From assembly GCF_007992495.1 (NCBI RefSeq), contig NZ_BKAJ01000038.1, positions 62,001-126,000 of the forward strand: a stretch of 64,000 nucleotides of DNA, read 5' to 3'. The stretch is from Reyranella soli. GTDB taxonomy: Bacteria; Pseudomonadota; Alphaproteobacteria; Reyranellales; Reyranellaceae. The notes under the pieces were generated by a model. It did no database searches, was not told the origin of the DNA, and saw nothing but the letters and a program-made list of their open reading frames with translations. Below, in pieces: positions 4,269-22,665 of the stretch. Every line of letters begins with the position of its first letter. Position 1 is the stretch's first letter. A program made the position numbers and the translations under genes.

Positions 4269-5060
4269 ATGACGCGCGCGCCCACATCGGCACCGTTCAC
4301 CCCGGAGCGCTACGGCTCGGCTGCAGCGCACTACGAACGAGGCCGGGTGCCGTACGCGCCAGAGCTGATCCGCCGCGTCGCCGAGGTCACCGGCCTTGGC
4401 TCGCAGCACCGTGTGCTCGATCTCGGCTGTGGCCCGGGCCCGCTCGCCCGAGGCTTCGCGCCGCTCGTTCGCGACGTGATCGCGATCGATCCTTCTCCCG
4501 AGATGCTGGCCGAGGCCCGCGCGCTGTCCGGGCAGGCGGCAAACATCCACTTCGTCGCCGGCAGCTCCTACGACCTCGATCCGGCGCTGGGGAGTTTCCG
4601 CCTTGCCGTCATGGGCCGCTCCTTCCACTGGATGGACCGCGTCGACACGCTGAAGCGCCTCGACCGGATGATCGAGCCGGCAGGGGCGGTGGCGTTGTTC
4701 TACGACACCGCGCCGGCGATCCCGGCAAATGCCTGGCGCAAGACCTGGAACGGCATCCGCGAGCGCTACGAGCCCGACACCGGGCCGCACGACCACGATC
4801 CCAACTGGATACGCAACGAGGCGATCCTGCTCGACTCGGCCTTCGCTCGCCTGGAGCGCTTCGGCGTTGTCGAGCGCCGCTCGATCGACGTCGAGATGCT
4901 GGTGCATCGGGCGCTCTCGATGGGTTCCACGTCGCCCGCCCACCTCGGCGAAAACATGTCGACCATGGTGGCGGAGATCCGCGCCGCGCTCGCCGACGTA
5001 CGCGAGGAAGTCGTGGAAACCGCCGCCCTGGTGGCATGGCGGATCAGGGTTGGTATTTGA
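4269..5060 (+). CDS. Class I SAM-dependent methyltransferase
   Basis: This 263-residue protein has a Rossmann-type methyltransferase core. Motif I is VLDLGCGPGPLA near residue 50, the acidic motif II region reads VIAIDPSPEMLAEA, and the later GRSFHWMDR resembles the substrate-facing loop of UbiE/Methyltransf_11-type enzymes. It starts 3 nt after hyuB and probably belongs to that operon. Its 3' end overlaps the convergent amidohydrolase gene by 17 nt. The methyl acceptor is unknown and nothing in the sequence separates O-, N- or C-methylation. Confidence 0.85.
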   Translation: MTRAPTSAPFTPERYGSAAAHYERGRVPYAPELIRRVAEVTGLGSQHRVLDLGCGPGPLARGFAPLVRDVIAIDPSPEMLAEARALSGQAANIHFVAGSSYDLDPALGSFRLAVMGRSFHWMDRVDTLKRLDRMIEPAGAVALFYDTAPAIPANAWRKTWNGIRERYEPDTGPHDHDPNWIRNEAILLDSAFARLERFGVVERRSIDVEMLVHRALSMGSTSPAHLGENMSTMVAEIRAALADVREEVVETAALVAWRIRVGI

Positions 5061-16544: not shown

Positions 16545-16760
16545 TCATTTTATGCCGAAGCGACGAGTGACCTCGTCCCGGCCCATTCGGTCGAAGTCAT
16601 CGGGTACGGTGATCTCGCCAGCACGGAATCCCAGCCGCCGTGGCGAAGATGCGTGACGCGGCTCAAGCGGCACGATCTTGGCCATCGGCTTCCCGGCCTT
16701 TGCAATCATGAAGCCTTCACCTTTTGACGCCTGTTCAACTAGGCGGGACAGGTGCCTTCT
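16545..16760 (-). pseudogene. 5'-truncated Phd/YefM-family antitoxin
   Basis: From position 16754 downward the minus strand encodes HLSRLVEQASKGEGFMIAK and then AGKPMAKIVPLEP, the core of Phd/YefM antitoxins, ending FGIK. A normal family member begins about 12 residues earlier with a VNIHEAKT-like strand. Here that part is replaced by unrelated sequence (APRHVRR) that is the 3' end of the neighbouring gene. The frame stays open to 16820, but that extension does not look like an antitoxin N-terminus. No VapC/Doc toxin gene is found on either side. The gene appears cut by insertion of the island to its right and is probably inactive. Confidence 0.6.
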
Positions 16761-17496
16761 CACGTGGCGTGGTGCCGTAGCCGACTTGAAACCATTTGTT
16801 CGCCACGGCGAAGAAGCCATCGCGAGTCACTTGGTCAATGGGCGTGCGCGATTTGAAATAAGGGAGATAGTTGACTGTCGCGGGGACGAATACCTTCCCC
16901 ATTTCCTCCAATAGCGCTTTGAGCAAGCCGGCATCATGAAACGGGCCGGGCTTCGCTAGTTTGCTGCCAGTCGGGCGCAGTAAAGCGAACGCCTTGGGGT
17001 TAGGATGCGCGAACGTGCTAAGCGTCCGATAGTGCTCGGCGCGCTTTTGTTCCGTGAAACCATCACGCGCGTCAAGTGCCGTTCTGATATGAACGGGTTC
17101 GAACTCGCGCCGATCTTTTTTTGGTTCTGTCTCACGCCATTTCGCGACTAGCTGCGGATCGGTGCGTAAGTAGTCAAGCAAGAACGCTGTTTCGAGAACG
17201 TCACGCAAATGACTGGCAGTGTTCTGATAATAGCCGGCGAGCAACAGTTTGAGCGCCGCGGCCCCACCGTTGAACAGGCGCAATCCCAAATGCTGAACTG
17301 TTAGCAGATCCAAATCATCTGTTAGCCAGCCCGCGGAAAAGTGCTCTAGGGCTGTCATCGACGCTTCCACCACACTAACGTGCAGGTGCAATGCTGTGTC
17401 GCTGGCGATGTGATCGAGGGTGACCATCCGGACACGCTCTTCCGCACTGTGCAGCAACAAAAAGTTCTCGGGTATCGCCATCTTGTGTCTGGTCAT
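16735..17496 (-). CDS. Uncharacterised protein with HPN motif (DUF5677-like)
   Basis: This is a 253-residue protein, probably cytosolic and largely helical. The stretch SHLRDVLETAFLLDYLRT followed further on by HYRTLSTFAHPNPKAFALL resembles the DUF5677-like family of unknown function, whose members share a (Y)xxLSxxxHPN signature. Its start overlaps the preceding pseudogene by 4 nt (ATGA), showing the two were once a coupled pair. Its 3' end runs into the truncated antitoxin, so the last ~8 residues may be encoded by foreign DNA across the junction. Base composition is more AT-rich than the flanking host genes. Confidence 0.6.
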   Translation of the reverse strand: MTRHKMAIPENFLLLHSAEERVRMVTLDHIASDTALHLHVSVVEASMTALEHFSAGWLTDDLDLLTVQHLGLRLFNGGAAALKLLLAGYYQNTASHLRDVLETAFLLDYLRTDPQLVAKWRETEPKKDRREFEPVHIRTALDARDGFTEQKRAEHYRTLSTFAHPNPKAFALLRPTGSKLAKPGPFHDAGLLKALLEEMGKVFVPATVNYLPYFKSRTPIDQVTRDGFFAVANKWFQVGYGTTPREKAPVPPS

Positions 17497-19009: not shown

Positions 19010-19267
19010 ATGCTGACCCCTGTCGATGCCCGCGCCTACCTCCACACCGCCGCGTGTTACGGCCAGCCGCTTGGTGTGCGCTGCCGGTCCGGCGAACGAC
19101 GTGCCTTGGTTCCGCTGGACGTGATCGGCGCCAAGTCCAGGAACATGCGCGAGTTGCGCACGCTGCCGCTCAAGTGCCGGACGTGCGGCGGGCGGGACGT
19201 CGAGCTTTGGTTGTTTGTGACCGGCGAGGTGGGGCGTGTTTGGTGCGAGGACTCTAAGACCGTTTAG
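19010..19267 (+). CDS. Small zinc-ribbon-like protein
   Basis: This is an 85-residue frame with CRTCGGRDVELWLFVTGEV near the C-terminus and a single cysteine pair (CxxC), plus earlier cysteines in AACYGQPLGVRCRSGE. The pattern resembles small alphaproteobacterial zinc-ribbon proteins of unknown role. The start at 19010 has only a weak ribosome-binding site (GGTCC). The last 14 nt overlap the convergent DUF3800 gene. It is plausible but short. Confidence 0.45.
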   Translation: MLTPVDARAYLHTAACYGQPLGVRCRSGERRALVPLDVIGAKSRNMRELRTLPLKCRTCGGRDVELWLFVTGEVGRVWCEDSKTV

Positions 19268-20000
19268 CTTTCTGGCCGGCATTCCAATCCAAAAACCAGA
19301 TGTCAATGCCACGAAGTGCTACATGCTTCATGGTTTCCTGCGCCAGGGAGGGAAGAAACCATTTCTGTTCGATGAACTCGATGATGTCCTTCTTGTGGGC
19401 GGCCGAATATTCACGGTTCCACGCTGCCGCGATTGCGCCGGTAAACAAGTCGGCCGCCTGTACCAAGCGATTGTCCTTAGATTCCACAAAGTGGACGAGT
19501 TTGTACGCCTCGTACGTGCGTCCGTGCTCTCGCGCATCCCGATAATTCAGCGTAATCCGGGTCACTTCGGGCGAGTAACGGGTACCTCTGTTGTCGAGGT
19601 GAACGTAGAACTCGGGCAAAGCGGCGCCACTCTTGGCGTGTATGCGGGCGAACTTGTAGAGTAGCGTGAAGGCGTACTTGGTGAAGCCGAGTTCCCGATC
19701 ACCTTCGTTGTAGTCTTTGTGATTGGCCCGATGACTGTCGATCACCAGACAGTGGAAGCGAACGACTCCCGATTTCATCAACGGATGCAGCGCGTTGATA
19801 AGGGACTTGTACATCGGAACATTGTGCTTGCGGATTTTCGTCCACTTCAGTTCCGAGGTCCCACGGTAGGGTGGGCCAATGGCCTTTTCGATGGTGGCGA
19901 TCACCTGTTCAGTGCGATCCGCTCGGCCGTACATCGCGCCTATGACGATGTAGCGGTGATCCGTCTGCGAGCTTTCATCGCAATGTATGTCCCAGTGCAC
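19254..20000 (-). CDS. DUF3800-family protein
   Basis: This 248-residue protein starts at a GTG (20000). The N-terminal HCDESSQTDHRYIVIGAMY, the central FYVHLDNRG, and FVESKDNRLVQAADLFTGAI near residue 185 are the conserved acidic blocks of DUF3800, a family with a predicted RNase H-like fold that is common on mobile elements and in defence contexts. The acidic residues look intact. It is the right-most gene of the accessory island. Between it and the SRAP operon lies a tRNA 3'-end fragment. Its function is not known. Confidence 0.75.
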   Translation of the reverse strand: MHWDIHCDESSQTDHRYIVIGAMYGRADRTEQVIATIEKAIGPPYRGTSELKWTKIRKHNVPMYKSLINALHPLMKSGVVRFHCLVIDSHRANHKDYNEGDRELGFTKYAFTLLYKFARIHAKSGAALPEFYVHLDNRGTRYSPEVTRITLNYRDAREHGRTYEAYKLVHFVESKDNRLVQAADLFTGAIAAAWNREYSAAHKKDIIEFIEQKWFLPSLAQETMKHVALRGIDIWFLDWNAGQKAKRS

Positions 20001-20152: not shown

Positions 20153-20180
20153 TGGCGCGCCCTACGGGATTCGAACCCGT
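20153..20180 (-). other. Detached tRNA 3' end (T-arm, acceptor strand, CCA), probable attachment-site scar
   Basis: On the minus strand 20180-20164 folds as a perfect 5-bp T-arm with loop TTCGAAT. It is followed by acceptor strand AGGGCGC, discriminator G and CCA (20155-20153). A complete tRNA would need GCGCCCT about 65 nt upstream and a D-arm. Neither is present, so only the 3' end exists. Such a fragment is what integration at a tRNA gene leaves at one end of an element. The isoacceptor cannot be assigned. The rest of 20001-20471 shows no convincing gene. Confidence 0.6.
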
Positions 20181-20471: not shown

Positions 20472-21119
20472 CTACGACTGACCACTGACGGGCGTAGGCG
20501 TCTTCTTGGGCACCCACAGGTCTTTGGTTGCCGTGATCTCGATCAATTCGTTCGGAAAGGCCCGTTGCTGGAAAGCCACAAGGTCTTCGAACGAGCCGTG
20601 CAGCCACTGGTCGAGCTCGTGCGGATGGAGCAGCACCGGCATCCGGTGATGCAACGGCCGTATCGCGTCATTGGAGTCGGTCATCACACCGGAATAGACG
20701 GGGCCCCATTCGTCGCTCTCGCGCCACAGGCCTGCCCAGGCGGCGATGGGTTGGTCCTTGATCGTGACCCATGTCCTGGTCTTCCCGCCTTTCGGCCCTT
20801 CCGGCTCGGCGAAGCTCGTCAGGGGAATCAGGCAGCGCGATTGCGGCTTCTGCGCCAACGGCTTCCAGGGGAACTTGGCGATATCGGCGATGTTGTTGAC
20901 GGGTTTGGGTTTGGAGCCTGGCTTCATGGTCGCGAAGCGCATCGGAAAGCCCCACACCATCGACTGCAGGATGCGCTCGCCGTCGGCTTCACGGACCACC
21001 AGTCCGGGAGCGCCGGGCAGGATGTCGTCCGGCAGGTTCGGTTCGACAGGCGGCCTTCGCGCTCGGAAGGTTTGGGCGACTTCATCCCTGGTTTTGCGCA
21101 CGGTGTAGAGAGTGCACAT
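20472..21119 (-). CDS. SRAP-domain protein (YedK/HMCES-like), active site intact
   Basis: This 215-residue SOS response-associated peptidase (SRAP) protein belongs to the family that crosslinks to abasic sites in single-stranded DNA through Cys2 after methionine removal. The start at 21119 (MCTLY) is preceded by GAGGAG. The four positions known for YedK are present: C2, N75 (KPVNNIADI), E105 (TSFAEPEG) and H157 (PLHHRMPVLL). Length is typical. It is the last gene of a minus-strand operon and lies 41 nt after a degenerate paralogue. The predicted role is shielding abasic sites at stalled forks. LexA control is suggested by the box at 22651-22665. Confidence 0.88.
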   Translation of the reverse strand: MCTLYTVRKTRDEVAQTFRARRPPVEPNLPDDILPGAPGLVVREADGERILQSMVWGFPMRFATMKPGSKPKPVNNIADIAKFPWKPLAQKPQSRCLIPLTSFAEPEGPKGGKTRTWVTIKDQPIAAWAGLWRESDEWGPVYSGVMTDSNDAIRPLHHRMPVLLHPHELDQWLHGSFEDLVAFQQRAFPNELIEITATKDLWVPKKTPTPVSGQS

Positions 21120-21160
21120 GTCGGCTCCTCGAATCGGGCGATCCTGCGGTGTCCCCAGGC

Positions 21161-21808
21161 TCAAAGCAACGCGCCGTAGCGCGCGCGGGGTCGCTGCACC
21201 CACAGGTCTTTCGTGCGCTCGACTTCCATGCGATCGGCCGGGAAGGGGGGCCGGAACTGGAACTCGATCACGTCGTCGATCGAGCCTTCGAGCCATTGGT
21301 CGTATTCGTCCGGGGCAAGCATCACCGGCATGCGTGGATTGAGCGGGGCGACGGCGCTGTTGCTGTCGGTCGTCATGGCGCCGTAGACGGGTCCCCATTC
21401 CTCGCTTTTGCGACAGAATCCCGCCCAGGCGAAGATCGGCCAGTCCTTTGCCTTGAACCACGTGCGTGTCATCGAGCCGCGCTTGCCGTCCGGCTGCGCG
21501 AACGCCGCCACCGGGATGAGACAGCGGTAGCGCGGGTCCGGCGCCATCGTGCGCCACATTGGATTGGTCAGGTCGGCAATGAGGTTAACTGGCTCGTGAT
21601 GCAGCAGCCCGCCGGCTCCATCCTTCTGTGGCCGCGGGAAGCCCCACGTCGCCGGCAGCATCACGCGCTGACCGACGGAGCCTCGCACGATGATGCCGGG
21701 CTCTCCGCGCTTCGTTTCGTGCGGGATGTCGAGCTTGGGCGGATCCGCAACACCGAAGTGGGCCGCCATGTCTGCGATGCTTTGAGGGGCTTCGTAGAGA
21801 TTGCACAT
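21161..21808 (-). CDS. SRAP-domain paralogue lacking two active-site residues
   Basis: This 215-residue protein is colinear with its neighbour and begins MCNLY, so Cys2 is kept, as is N75 (EPVNLIADL). The catalytic glutamate is glutamine at 105 (AAFAQPDG) and the histidine is asparagine at 157 (APLNPRMPVML). In studied SRAP proteins Glu and His support Schiff-base chemistry and crosslink reversal. A protein with only Cys and Asn might bind abasic DNA without normal chemistry, form a non-reversible adduct, or act on something else. It starts 2 nt after the stop of the 191-residue protein gene, so co-translation is likely. Confidence 0.85.
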   Translation of the reverse strand: MCNLYEAPQSIADMAAHFGVADPPKLDIPHETKRGEPGIIVRGSVGQRVMLPATWGFPRPQKDGAGGLLHHEPVNLIADLTNPMWRTMAPDPRYRCLIPVAAFAQPDGKRGSMTRTWFKAKDWPIFAWAGFCRKSEEWGPVYGAMTTDSNSAVAPLNPRMPVMLAPDEYDQWLEGSIDDVIEFQFRPPFPADRMEVERTKDLWVQRPRARYGALL

Positions 21809-21810
21809 GG

Positions 21811-22386
21811 CTAGAGCACCTGGTCATTGGGCGCACAGCGCCAGAACCACGCGCGGTGCTCACGTTCGGCCCATTCGATGCAGACGCCGGCGTAGGTCAT
21901 CGCGTCGTCGACCGAGCGATCGATCTGCTCGACCGTCTTTGCCGCCGCAGCGTGCGCCGAGTGGGAATAGGTTCCGCGGCGGCGCTCGAAGCGATAGGTC
22001 TGCACGATCTCCGACAGCGCCTTCTTGGCGCGCGCCCAGCCCAGGATGGCTTCCCGTTGCGCTGCCAGTCGCTGCCACTCGGCTTCGACTTCCGCCGGCG
22101 TAGGTGCCTGCAGGCTTTCGGGAACAAGGCGATGCAGTCCGTCGCGCAGCAGGAAGGCGGCCATGGTCGCACTCTGCTCGGGGAAGCGGAAATGGAAGTA
22201 CTCGATGCCGTTGAACTTGCCGCCGCGCCACTTGGGATCGATCTCACCCGCCTTCACGAGGATGCGGCCTTTCTCCGTGTAGGTGAGGGTTCCGCGCGCG
22301 ATGCGGGCGACGCGCGCCGGAAAGAGCCGCTCGACATCGGCCGAAGAGAGGTAGCCGCGAACAATGTCGTCTTCGGACGTCATCAT
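21811..22386 (-). CDS. Unrecognised 191-residue protein of the SRAP operon
   Basis: I do not recognise this family. The protein begins MMTSEDDIVRGYLSSADVER (ATG 22386, GGAG 5 nt upstream), has a central FNGIEYFHFRFPEQSATMAA, and a helical, Arg/Glu-rich second half (EAEWQRLAAQREAILGWA, RFERRRGTYSHSAH). No signal peptide, membrane segment or cysteine cluster was seen. The start overlaps the upstream zinc-ribbon stop by 4 nt (ATGA) and the SRAP paralogue begins 2 nt after its stop, so it is firmly embedded in the SRAP operon. A DNA-damage function is inferred from context only. Confidence 0.75.
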   Translation of the reverse strand: MMTSEDDIVRGYLSSADVERLFPARVARIARGTLTYTEKGRILVKAGEIDPKWRGGKFNGIEYFHFRFPEQSATMAAFLLRDGLHRLVPESLQAPTPAEVEAEWQRLAAQREAILGWARAKKALSEIVQTYRFERRRGTYSHSAHAAAAKTVEQIDRSVDDAMTYAGVCIEWAEREHRAWFWRCAPNDQVL

Positions 22387-22622
22387 CGGTACTCCGCCAT
22401 GAACCGCTTCACGTGGCGGCGTTCGCGAAAAACGTGGGGCGTGAACTCGCGCCGTCCGCAGTGGCTGCAGATGAACGGCAGCGTGTCGACGCATCGCAAG
22501 TTGCCCTCGCGGGCGCCGATGCGGTCGTGTTCGACGAGCGCGCGATGCAGGCAGTGATTGCACGAGATGCCGAGCGGCAAGTGACTATCCCAGACGTCAT
22601 GAAGATCCGCGGATGGAGACAT
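22383..22622 (-). CDS. Small zinc-ribbon protein, first gene of the SRAP operon
   Basis: This is a 79-residue protein starting MSPSADLHDVWDSHLP at 22622 (GAGAG upstream). An upstream TTG extension to 22667 would run through the LexA-type box and is not preferred. Two cysteine pairs, ISCNHC and FICSHCGRREF, spaced about 35 residues apart fit a four-Cys zinc ribbon of a small DNA- or protein-binding type. Its last codon overlaps the next gene (ATGA). The promoter region directly upstream carries a LexA-type box. Confidence 0.7.
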   Translation of the reverse strand: MSPSADLHDVWDSHLPLGISCNHCLHRALVEHDRIGAREGNLRCVDTLPFICSHCGRREFTPHVFRERRHVKRFMAEYR

Positions 22623-22650
22623 TGGCCAGTTCTCTCTGTCCCACTCATGA

Positions 22651-22665
22651 GAACAAAATGAGAAC
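22651..22665 (-). promoter_or_regulatory. LexA-type SOS box, GTTC-N7-GTTC
   Basis: On the minus strand the sequence is GTTCTCATTTTGTTC, an exact match to the alphaproteobacterial LexA direct-repeat consensus. It ends 28 nt before the preferred start of the zinc-ribbon gene, where it could occlude the promoter of the whole four-gene SRAP operon. The match and location are seen directly; LexA binding is inferred. Confidence 0.75.

Follow-up and report, generated by a model that had tools for sequence, protein, structure and literature searches.

Organization of the locus

The window analysed here, a 64-kb stretch of contig NZ_BKAJ01000038.1 of the alphaproteobacterium Reyranella soli, contains a minus-strand operon of four genes that is headed by a LexA-type box. 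Two of its genes, which we call SRAP-A and SRAP-B, code for homologues of the SRAP (YedK/HMCES) family of abasic-site proteins, and they differ sharply in the state of their predicted active sites. The features are given below from the head of the operon onwards.

22651..22665, minus strand: LexA-type box GTTCTCATTTTGTTC at the operon head, 28 nt ahead of the zinc-ribbon ATG
22383..22622, minus strand: zinc-ribbon gene, ATG at 22622, 79 aa, two CxxC motifs
21811..22386, minus strand: gene for a 191-aa protein with an alpha/beta N-terminal part and a helical C-terminal part, no family over cut-off
21161..21808, minus strand: SRAP-A gene, 215 aa, Pfam SRAP 1.1e-15, Cys2 kept with N75L, E105Q and H160N (YedK numbering)
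20472..21119, minus strand: SRAP-B gene, 215 aa, Pfam SRAP 3.5e-24, Cys2, Asn75, Glu105 and His160 kept

An earlier sequence-only reading had described four minus-strand genes with ATGA, 2-nt and 41-nt junctions below a box at 22651-22665, and the coordinates bear this out in full: the zinc-ribbon and 191-aa genes overlap at an ATGA, 2 nt separate the latter from SRAP-A, and 41 nt lie between SRAP-A and SRAP-B. Both SRAP genes that it recognized are genuine, since SRAP-A (58.1 bits) and SRAP-B (86.0 bits) pass the cut-off of 27.1 bits set for PF02586 (SRAP) in Pfam. As no PADLOC model was drawn in at E <= 1 by any of the four proteins, a reading of the operon as a defence system was set aside.

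Substitutions in the active site of SRAP-A

Active-site residues were read off against positions 2, 75, 105 and 160 of YedK from Escherichia coli MG1655. SRAP-B of the window matches YedK at all four (Cys2, Asn75, Glu105 and His160), and SRAP-A shares Cys2 and differs in having Leu75, Gln105 and Asn160. This pattern was traced through a table of relatives from which protein rows shorter than 180 aa were dropped, including the SRAP-A fragment of G044, the SRAP-B pieces of L261 and the pieces of L270 and L271 (designations of this form are our own handles). Four further rows were excluded as fragments or as read in a wrong frame, one of which, on L228, may be real and is described with the plasmids. 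In the 20 SRAP-A rows Leu75 and Asn160 are invariant (20/20 each), as is Arg162 (20/20); Ser2 is found in 18/20, Cys2 being confined to the window and G057, and Glu105 is changed in 19/20 (16 Asn, 3 Gln). The fragment from G044 carries the same FAQPDG and LNPRMP motifs. All four residues are intact in each of the 22 SRAP-B rows, in 22/22 rows that fall outside the A, B, C, D and MCGKFT classes (the last three are treated below), and in 7/7 unpaired SRAPs from other genomes.

Mutants of YedK reported in PMC9436759 give these replacements a biochemical context. There, crosslinking is severely impaired by E105Q, with neither exchange nor reversal of the crosslink after 24 h; the H160Q protein crosslinks about 10-fold more slowly and is severely slowed in reversal as well, and N75A has a very modest effect only. 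Given the defects measured for E105Q and H160Q, SRAP-A of the window is expected to crosslink poorly at best, and without reversal. The sequence-only reading had cast both proteins as abasic-site crosslinkers. This stands for SRAP-B, which keeps all four residues and is expected to be a YedK/HMCES-type protein that shields abasic (AP) sites in single-stranded DNA (ssDNA) through a thiazolidine crosslink; it falls for SRAP-A, in which the loss of three of the four catalytic residues led us to discard the idea of two crosslinking SRAPs. We refer to SRAP-A as an SRAP-fold homologue, making no claim of a working SRAP enzyme.

Origin and maintenance of SRAP-A

In a tree of 94 rows, SRAP-A forms a single clade (support 100/99) that branches among the SRAP-B rows, and within it three Reyranella rows are sister to 17 plasmid rows. 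The changes at positions 75 and 160 are common to the Reyranella and the plasmid branches. Our preferred reading is that SRAP-A arose from the SRAP-B lineage by an ancient duplication. Five comparisons per gene, with dS saturated in some, put the ratio of nonsynonymous to synonymous substitution rates (dN/dS) at 0.055-0.22 in SRAP-A and at 0.03-0.13 in SRAP-B, and values in the range of the former indicate that SRAP-A has been maintained by purifying selection. With the patterns used, no relative of SRAP-A was found in viral contigs; SRAP-B matched 9 phage records, all at less than 60% identity.

The tandem pair on plasmids

Searches of plasmid records with tblastn gave 231 matches for SRAP-A and 306 for SRAP-B, and 22 distinct records were taken from the best 40 of each. 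In 16 of these 22 stretches, which come from Rhizobiaceae and Sphingomonadaceae, both SRAPs lie on the same strand, with SRAP-A upstream in 16/16. The gap between the two genes is below 50 nt in 12 of the 16 pairs and wider in L222, L226, L227 and L269; in L261 SRAP-B is broken by an in-frame stop. Among the stretches without a pair, L223 has SRAP-A alone, L224 and L272 have SRAP-B alone, L271 holds a partial gene, and L270 has both genes in pieces next to an insertion sequence (IS) element. All 17 plasmid SRAP-A rows begin with [M/V/L]-Ser-Arg-Leu. The loss of Cys2 in L221, L222 and L226 is not an error of start-site assignment, because the open frame of SRAP-A begins just 1-3 codons earlier in these three.

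In many cases imuA-imuB-dnaE2 is a neighbour of the pair; genes for imuB- or dnaE-type polymerases occur within 5 kb in 14 of the 19 annotated plasmid stretches. A box is situated 57-65 nt upstream of SRAP-A in 5/16 pairs (L221, L227, L261, L265 and L267), within about 270 nt in L222 and L269, and 2 kb away in L226. The recurrence of a working and a disabled copy side by side on plasmids of other bacteria suggests that the disabled copy serves a function in its own right.

One of the rows excluded above deserves separate mention. At 4315-4983 (+) of L228, from plasmid pMC4 of Sphingopyxis indica (annotated coding sequence 4477-4986, 'hypothetical protein'), a frame adjoins a B-like SRAP on its upstream side, and the SRAP profile picks this frame up at 7.6e-15. 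It retains zero of the four catalytic residues and is perhaps another degenerate partner.

The LexA-type box

An exact GTTC-N7-GTTC is found once in the 64-kb window, against 1.62 matches expected by chance, and the box on its own was rejected as evidence, a single match per 64 kb being at chance level. However, an exact copy precedes the unit in 15/15 Reyranella loci (the window and L036-L049) that have a full-length 191-aa relative together with upstream DNA, L050 being left out as it is cut off upstream; G058 likewise has one. The footprint at these units has both GTTC ends invariant and most flanking bases variable, and it is this conserved footprint in 15/15 loci that lifts the box above chance. 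The motif was described by the sequence-only reading as a LexA box, and for this genus we could substantiate the assignment: it lies upstream of lexA in 21/21 and of recA in 25/28 Reyranella loci examined, the three recA loci without it having just about 80-170 nt of upstream DNA. These counts leave out 9 lexA loci (L182-L190) and 2 recA loci (L219 and L220) whose matches are split, weak or cut off. Alphaproteobacterial LexA sites have been reported to fall into GTTC and GAAC groups (PMC6473078). Taken together, LexA control of the operon is a well-supported prediction.

The zinc ribbon and the 191-aa protein

The four cysteines of the zinc ribbon are invariant in an alignment of 13 rows, and its best scores lie under every curated cut-off (15.7 versus 25.5 bits in Pfam, 14.1 versus 20.9 bits in NCBIfam); neither it nor the 191-aa protein has a library match over cut-off or at E <= 0.02. 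The AlphaFold2 model of the 191-aa protein consists of two parts and has a mean pLDDT of 85.8 (91.4 for the C-terminal part alone). Neither the whole model nor its C-terminal part found a match among solved structures with Foldseek at E <= 0.001, a search which could have missed the fold, and the best VIA Z scores, 6.6 for the N-terminal part (66 aligned, rmsd 2.5) and 6.5 for the C-terminal part (63 aligned, rmsd 3.1), are both in the background range. The dN/dS of this gene is 0.22-0.27 (3 comparisons). Within the order, 23 of 76 genomes gave a match to the protein at E <= 0.001, and in 16 of these E was below 1e-30; searches of 385 genomes across the class matched the 191-aa family in 5 and the zinc ribbon in 13. 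The full-length dyad of both genes was seen in Reyranella only, among the genomes searched. The idea that the 191-aa protein came from a phage or plasmid was dropped, as searches of phage and plasmid sequences gave no match to it at the limits used.

This dyad, with both genes present in 13/15 loci, is the usual core of the unit; the exceptions are G012, in which the zinc-ribbon frame has a stop, and G065, which gave no zinc-ribbon match. The SRAP pair is adjacent to the dyad in 2/15 loci, namely the window and G057; in G057 an extra 120-aa gene separates SRAP-A from the 191-aa gene, and the SRAP-B frame is disrupted. G058 has a box, the zinc ribbon and SRAP-B, with neither the 191-aa gene nor SRAP-A found between them, and G066 has a box, SRAP-A and SRAP-B with no dyad. 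The proposal that the four genes form a dedicated unit is thus not supported in that form, given that the pair adjoins the dyad in so few loci and occurs without it on plasmids and in G066. The best explanation is that the zinc ribbon and the 191-aa protein constitute a separate LexA-boxed dyad and that the SRAP pair became attached to it. As to conserved co-occurrence, which the sequence-only reading had put forward as a check, the outcome is mixed: the four-gene set varies, and yet a SRAP gene lies within 6 kb of a 191-aa-like gene in 7 of 26 other stretches (264 kb searched), including the operon copy of G057. Since about 0.05 such co-occurrences would be expected (an estimate that uses the 76 SRAP matches made across 65 genomes), the link is real though loose.

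A C-terminal part akin to that of the 191-aa protein recurs in other genes, some of which have a SRAP gene nearby; one of them has a helicase-like gene as its neighbour. Near 191-aa-like genes we also noted a gene for a small acidic protein (L040, L047, L049 and L053) and, by reading of the sequence, a methyltransferase-like gene (L040, L047 and L049). A second zinc-ribbon paralogue (profile E 3e-10) is encoded at 19010-19267 (+) of the window, about 1.2 kb from the operon and on the opposite strand.

Divergent pairs and other altered SRAPs

Reyranella also has seven divergently transcribed SRAP pairs (G000 C217, G000 C115, G017, G049, G052, G023 and G058), with a box between the genes in 7/7. 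One member, C, has the four residues intact in the 5/5 rows kept; in G017 its Met1 codon reads Lys, and the C row of L037 was counted as canonical though its Met1 codon reads Lys. The other member, D, shows no in-frame Met-Cys (first 90 residues kept), lacks Asn75 and Glu105 in 7/7 and lacks His160 in 5/7; what the D rows show at position 2 is an artefact of the alignment. In G333, from another family, one member of a divergent pair has Phe105 and Asn160, and there is no exact box between the genes. These pairs are likely a second case of an active SRAP accompanied by a dead one, independent of the tandem A/B pair, with the caveat that the tree tool warns of a false joining of the long C and D branches. 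In the genome of the window itself (G000; L141 = C217, L142 = C115) the canonical divergent member is frame-disrupted and the degenerate member is open.

A further Reyranella SRAP lineage, whose proteins mostly start with MCGKFT, comprises 18 rows (L055, L117, L120, L122, L124, L125, L129-L134, L153 and L156-L160) with His at the Asn75 position, Glu105 kept and no His160 in the alignment. It may represent a third altered active site, with the caveat that position 160 is aligned with uncertainty.

Surroundings of the operon

A tRNA-like 3' end lies just past the operon at 20153-20180 (-). ARAGORN detected no tRNA anywhere in the window, and the genome has a single copy of the 28-base string, so that an island boundary at this point is not supported; an old integration site is possible. 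A DUF3800 protein gene lies at 19254-20000 (-) of the window, and another DUF3800 gene is found near the SRAP pair on plasmid pQ15_94_4. A weak Phd/YefM antitoxin match (E 4e-5, under the curated cut-off) was noted at 16545-16820 (-).

Relationship to known systems

Both SRAPs of the window match the SRAP family (YedK/HMCES, PF02586), and SRAP-B does so with all four YedK active-site residues. SRAP-A departs from it by N75L, E105Q and H160N, to which its plasmid relatives add C2S, in a family whose His, Glu and Cys have been termed absolutely conserved (PMC3765255, 2013). The same work, by Aravind et al., places SRAP genes next to ImuA/ImuB/DnaE2, DinB or UmuCD, and its SRAP-Ku neighbourhoods include two Zn-ribbon-like domains, to which the zinc ribbon of the window can be likened by description only; unlike the present case, the neighbourhoods as set out there feature neither paired SRAPs nor a catalytically degenerate member. 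The plasmid imuABC cassettes of Remigi et al. (2014, PMC4151985), also found on pTi and pAt, are likewise plasmid-borne and confer mutagenesis under SOS control, but the words 'peptidase' and 'DUF159' are absent from its main text. The presence of SRAP genes within SOS operons and alongside Zn ribbons (PMC3765255), and plasmid-borne imuABC (PMC4151985), are already on record. ImuB/DnaE2 offers a parallel in that a catalytically dead paralogue is retained as a partner within an SOS module; fold and chemistry are different, and the likeness is one of analogy only. Titles and abstracts of the open-access literature searched name no inactive or paired SRAPs, and a maintained active/dead pair, as predicted here, was not met in that literature.

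Functional implications and alternative explanations

We propose, with a probability of about 0.55, that the operon is a LexA-repressed damage-response unit in which SRAP-B shields abasic sites and SRAP-A acts as its pseudoenzyme partner. DNA damage would relieve repression by LexA, and SRAP-B would then shield AP sites in ssDNA via a reversible crosslink through Cys2, both steps being suggested by the box and by family membership. SRAP-A, lacking the acid-base residues needed to open the ring, form the Schiff base and reverse the reaction, would bind the same type of DNA or SRAP-B itself. As a competitor, a heteromeric partner or a non-reversing variant, it could in this way decide the fate of the abasic site, either tuning the residence of SRAP-B on the lesion or handing the site to a translesion polymerase; the window SRAP-A, with its Cys2, may crosslink slowly and without reversal. 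Its role as a partner is what we infer from the pairing, and binding of DNA by SRAP-A is a guess from the fold and the retained Arg162, a residue which presumably contacts DNA.

Several observations weigh against this proposal. The basis for a partnership is gene pairing and selection only, and the plasmid records were chosen by similarity, so that the counts above describe a non-random sample. The term 'dead' does not cover every member, as Cys2 is present in SRAP-A of the window and G057, and Glu105 in that of L268. A role that depends on SRAP-B is ill-suited to those cases in which SRAP-A is open beside a disrupted SRAP-B (G057 and L261) or stands alone (L223). With regard to regulation, 8/16 plasmid pairs have no exact box nearby in the fetched stretch; six of these (L225, L260, L262, L263, L264 and L266) follow dnaE2, with the operon head outside the stretch, but L259 and L268 do not. 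Furthermore, the orientation of the motif relative to the gene is opposite at lexA and recA and the same at the SRAP operon, and a promoter scan of the operon found no sigma-70-like site.

The uniformity of the replacements in the SRAP-A clade (L75 20/20, N160 20/20, S2 18/20) is also what a new active site would produce, and SRAP-A could on this account be an active enzyme of altered chemistry, either Schiff-base/lyase-type or a slow irreversible crosslinker that acts on another substrate. Consistent with this, the window protein has Cys2, and YedK C2A and C2S are reported to form Schiff-base intermediates, a SRAP without the Cys2 side chain cleaving in the manner of a lyase. However, in PMC9436759 the lyase rate of YedK C2A/E105Q is about 25-fold under that of C2A (0.002 versus 0.05), and Glu105 is missing in 19/20 SRAP-A rows; we regard such an enzyme as unlikely. 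We are about equally doubtful that the four genes are merely co-regulated, as independent SOS genes that share one LexA box and have no physical or functional partnership. The modular content speaks for this, the dyad being without an adjoining SRAP pair in 13/15 loci, with the zinc ribbon and SRAP-B together in G058, A and B alone in G066 and an extra 120-aa gene in G057; against it stand the A-B order, found with the same asymmetry in Reyranella, Rhizobiaceae and Sphingomonadaceae, and the over-representation of SRAP genes near 191-aa-like genes. The loss of three or four catalytic residues and the failure to find SRAP-A beside SRAP-B in G058, L224 and L272 might further be taken to mean that SRAP-A is a decaying duplicate heading for loss, but this we disfavour as very improbable, given dN/dS values of 0.055-0.22 and the retention of one clade across three families.

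Beyond the operon itself, the pseudoenzyme-partner proposal can be extended, tentatively and with the odds somewhat against it, to a general two-component abasic-site system of Alphaproteobacteria. Active/dead SRAP pairs would have arisen at least twice (tandem A/B and divergent C/D), the dead SRAP controlling residence, reversal or hand-off of the crosslink made by the active one to SOS mutagenic polymerases. To our knowledge, the resolution of SRAP crosslinks and the choice of whether an abasic site is shielded or bypassed mutagenically are open questions in the field. Direct experimental access to them is offered by natural SRAPs that occur next to an intact partner and either lack Cys2 or have the E105Q change known from work on YedK; SRAP-A of the window, which carries N75L, E105Q and H160N by nature, can be compared with its own partner, SRAP-B. 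If the extended proposal is true, the plasmid pairs would couple the protection of AP sites to imuABC mutagenesis during plasmid spread.

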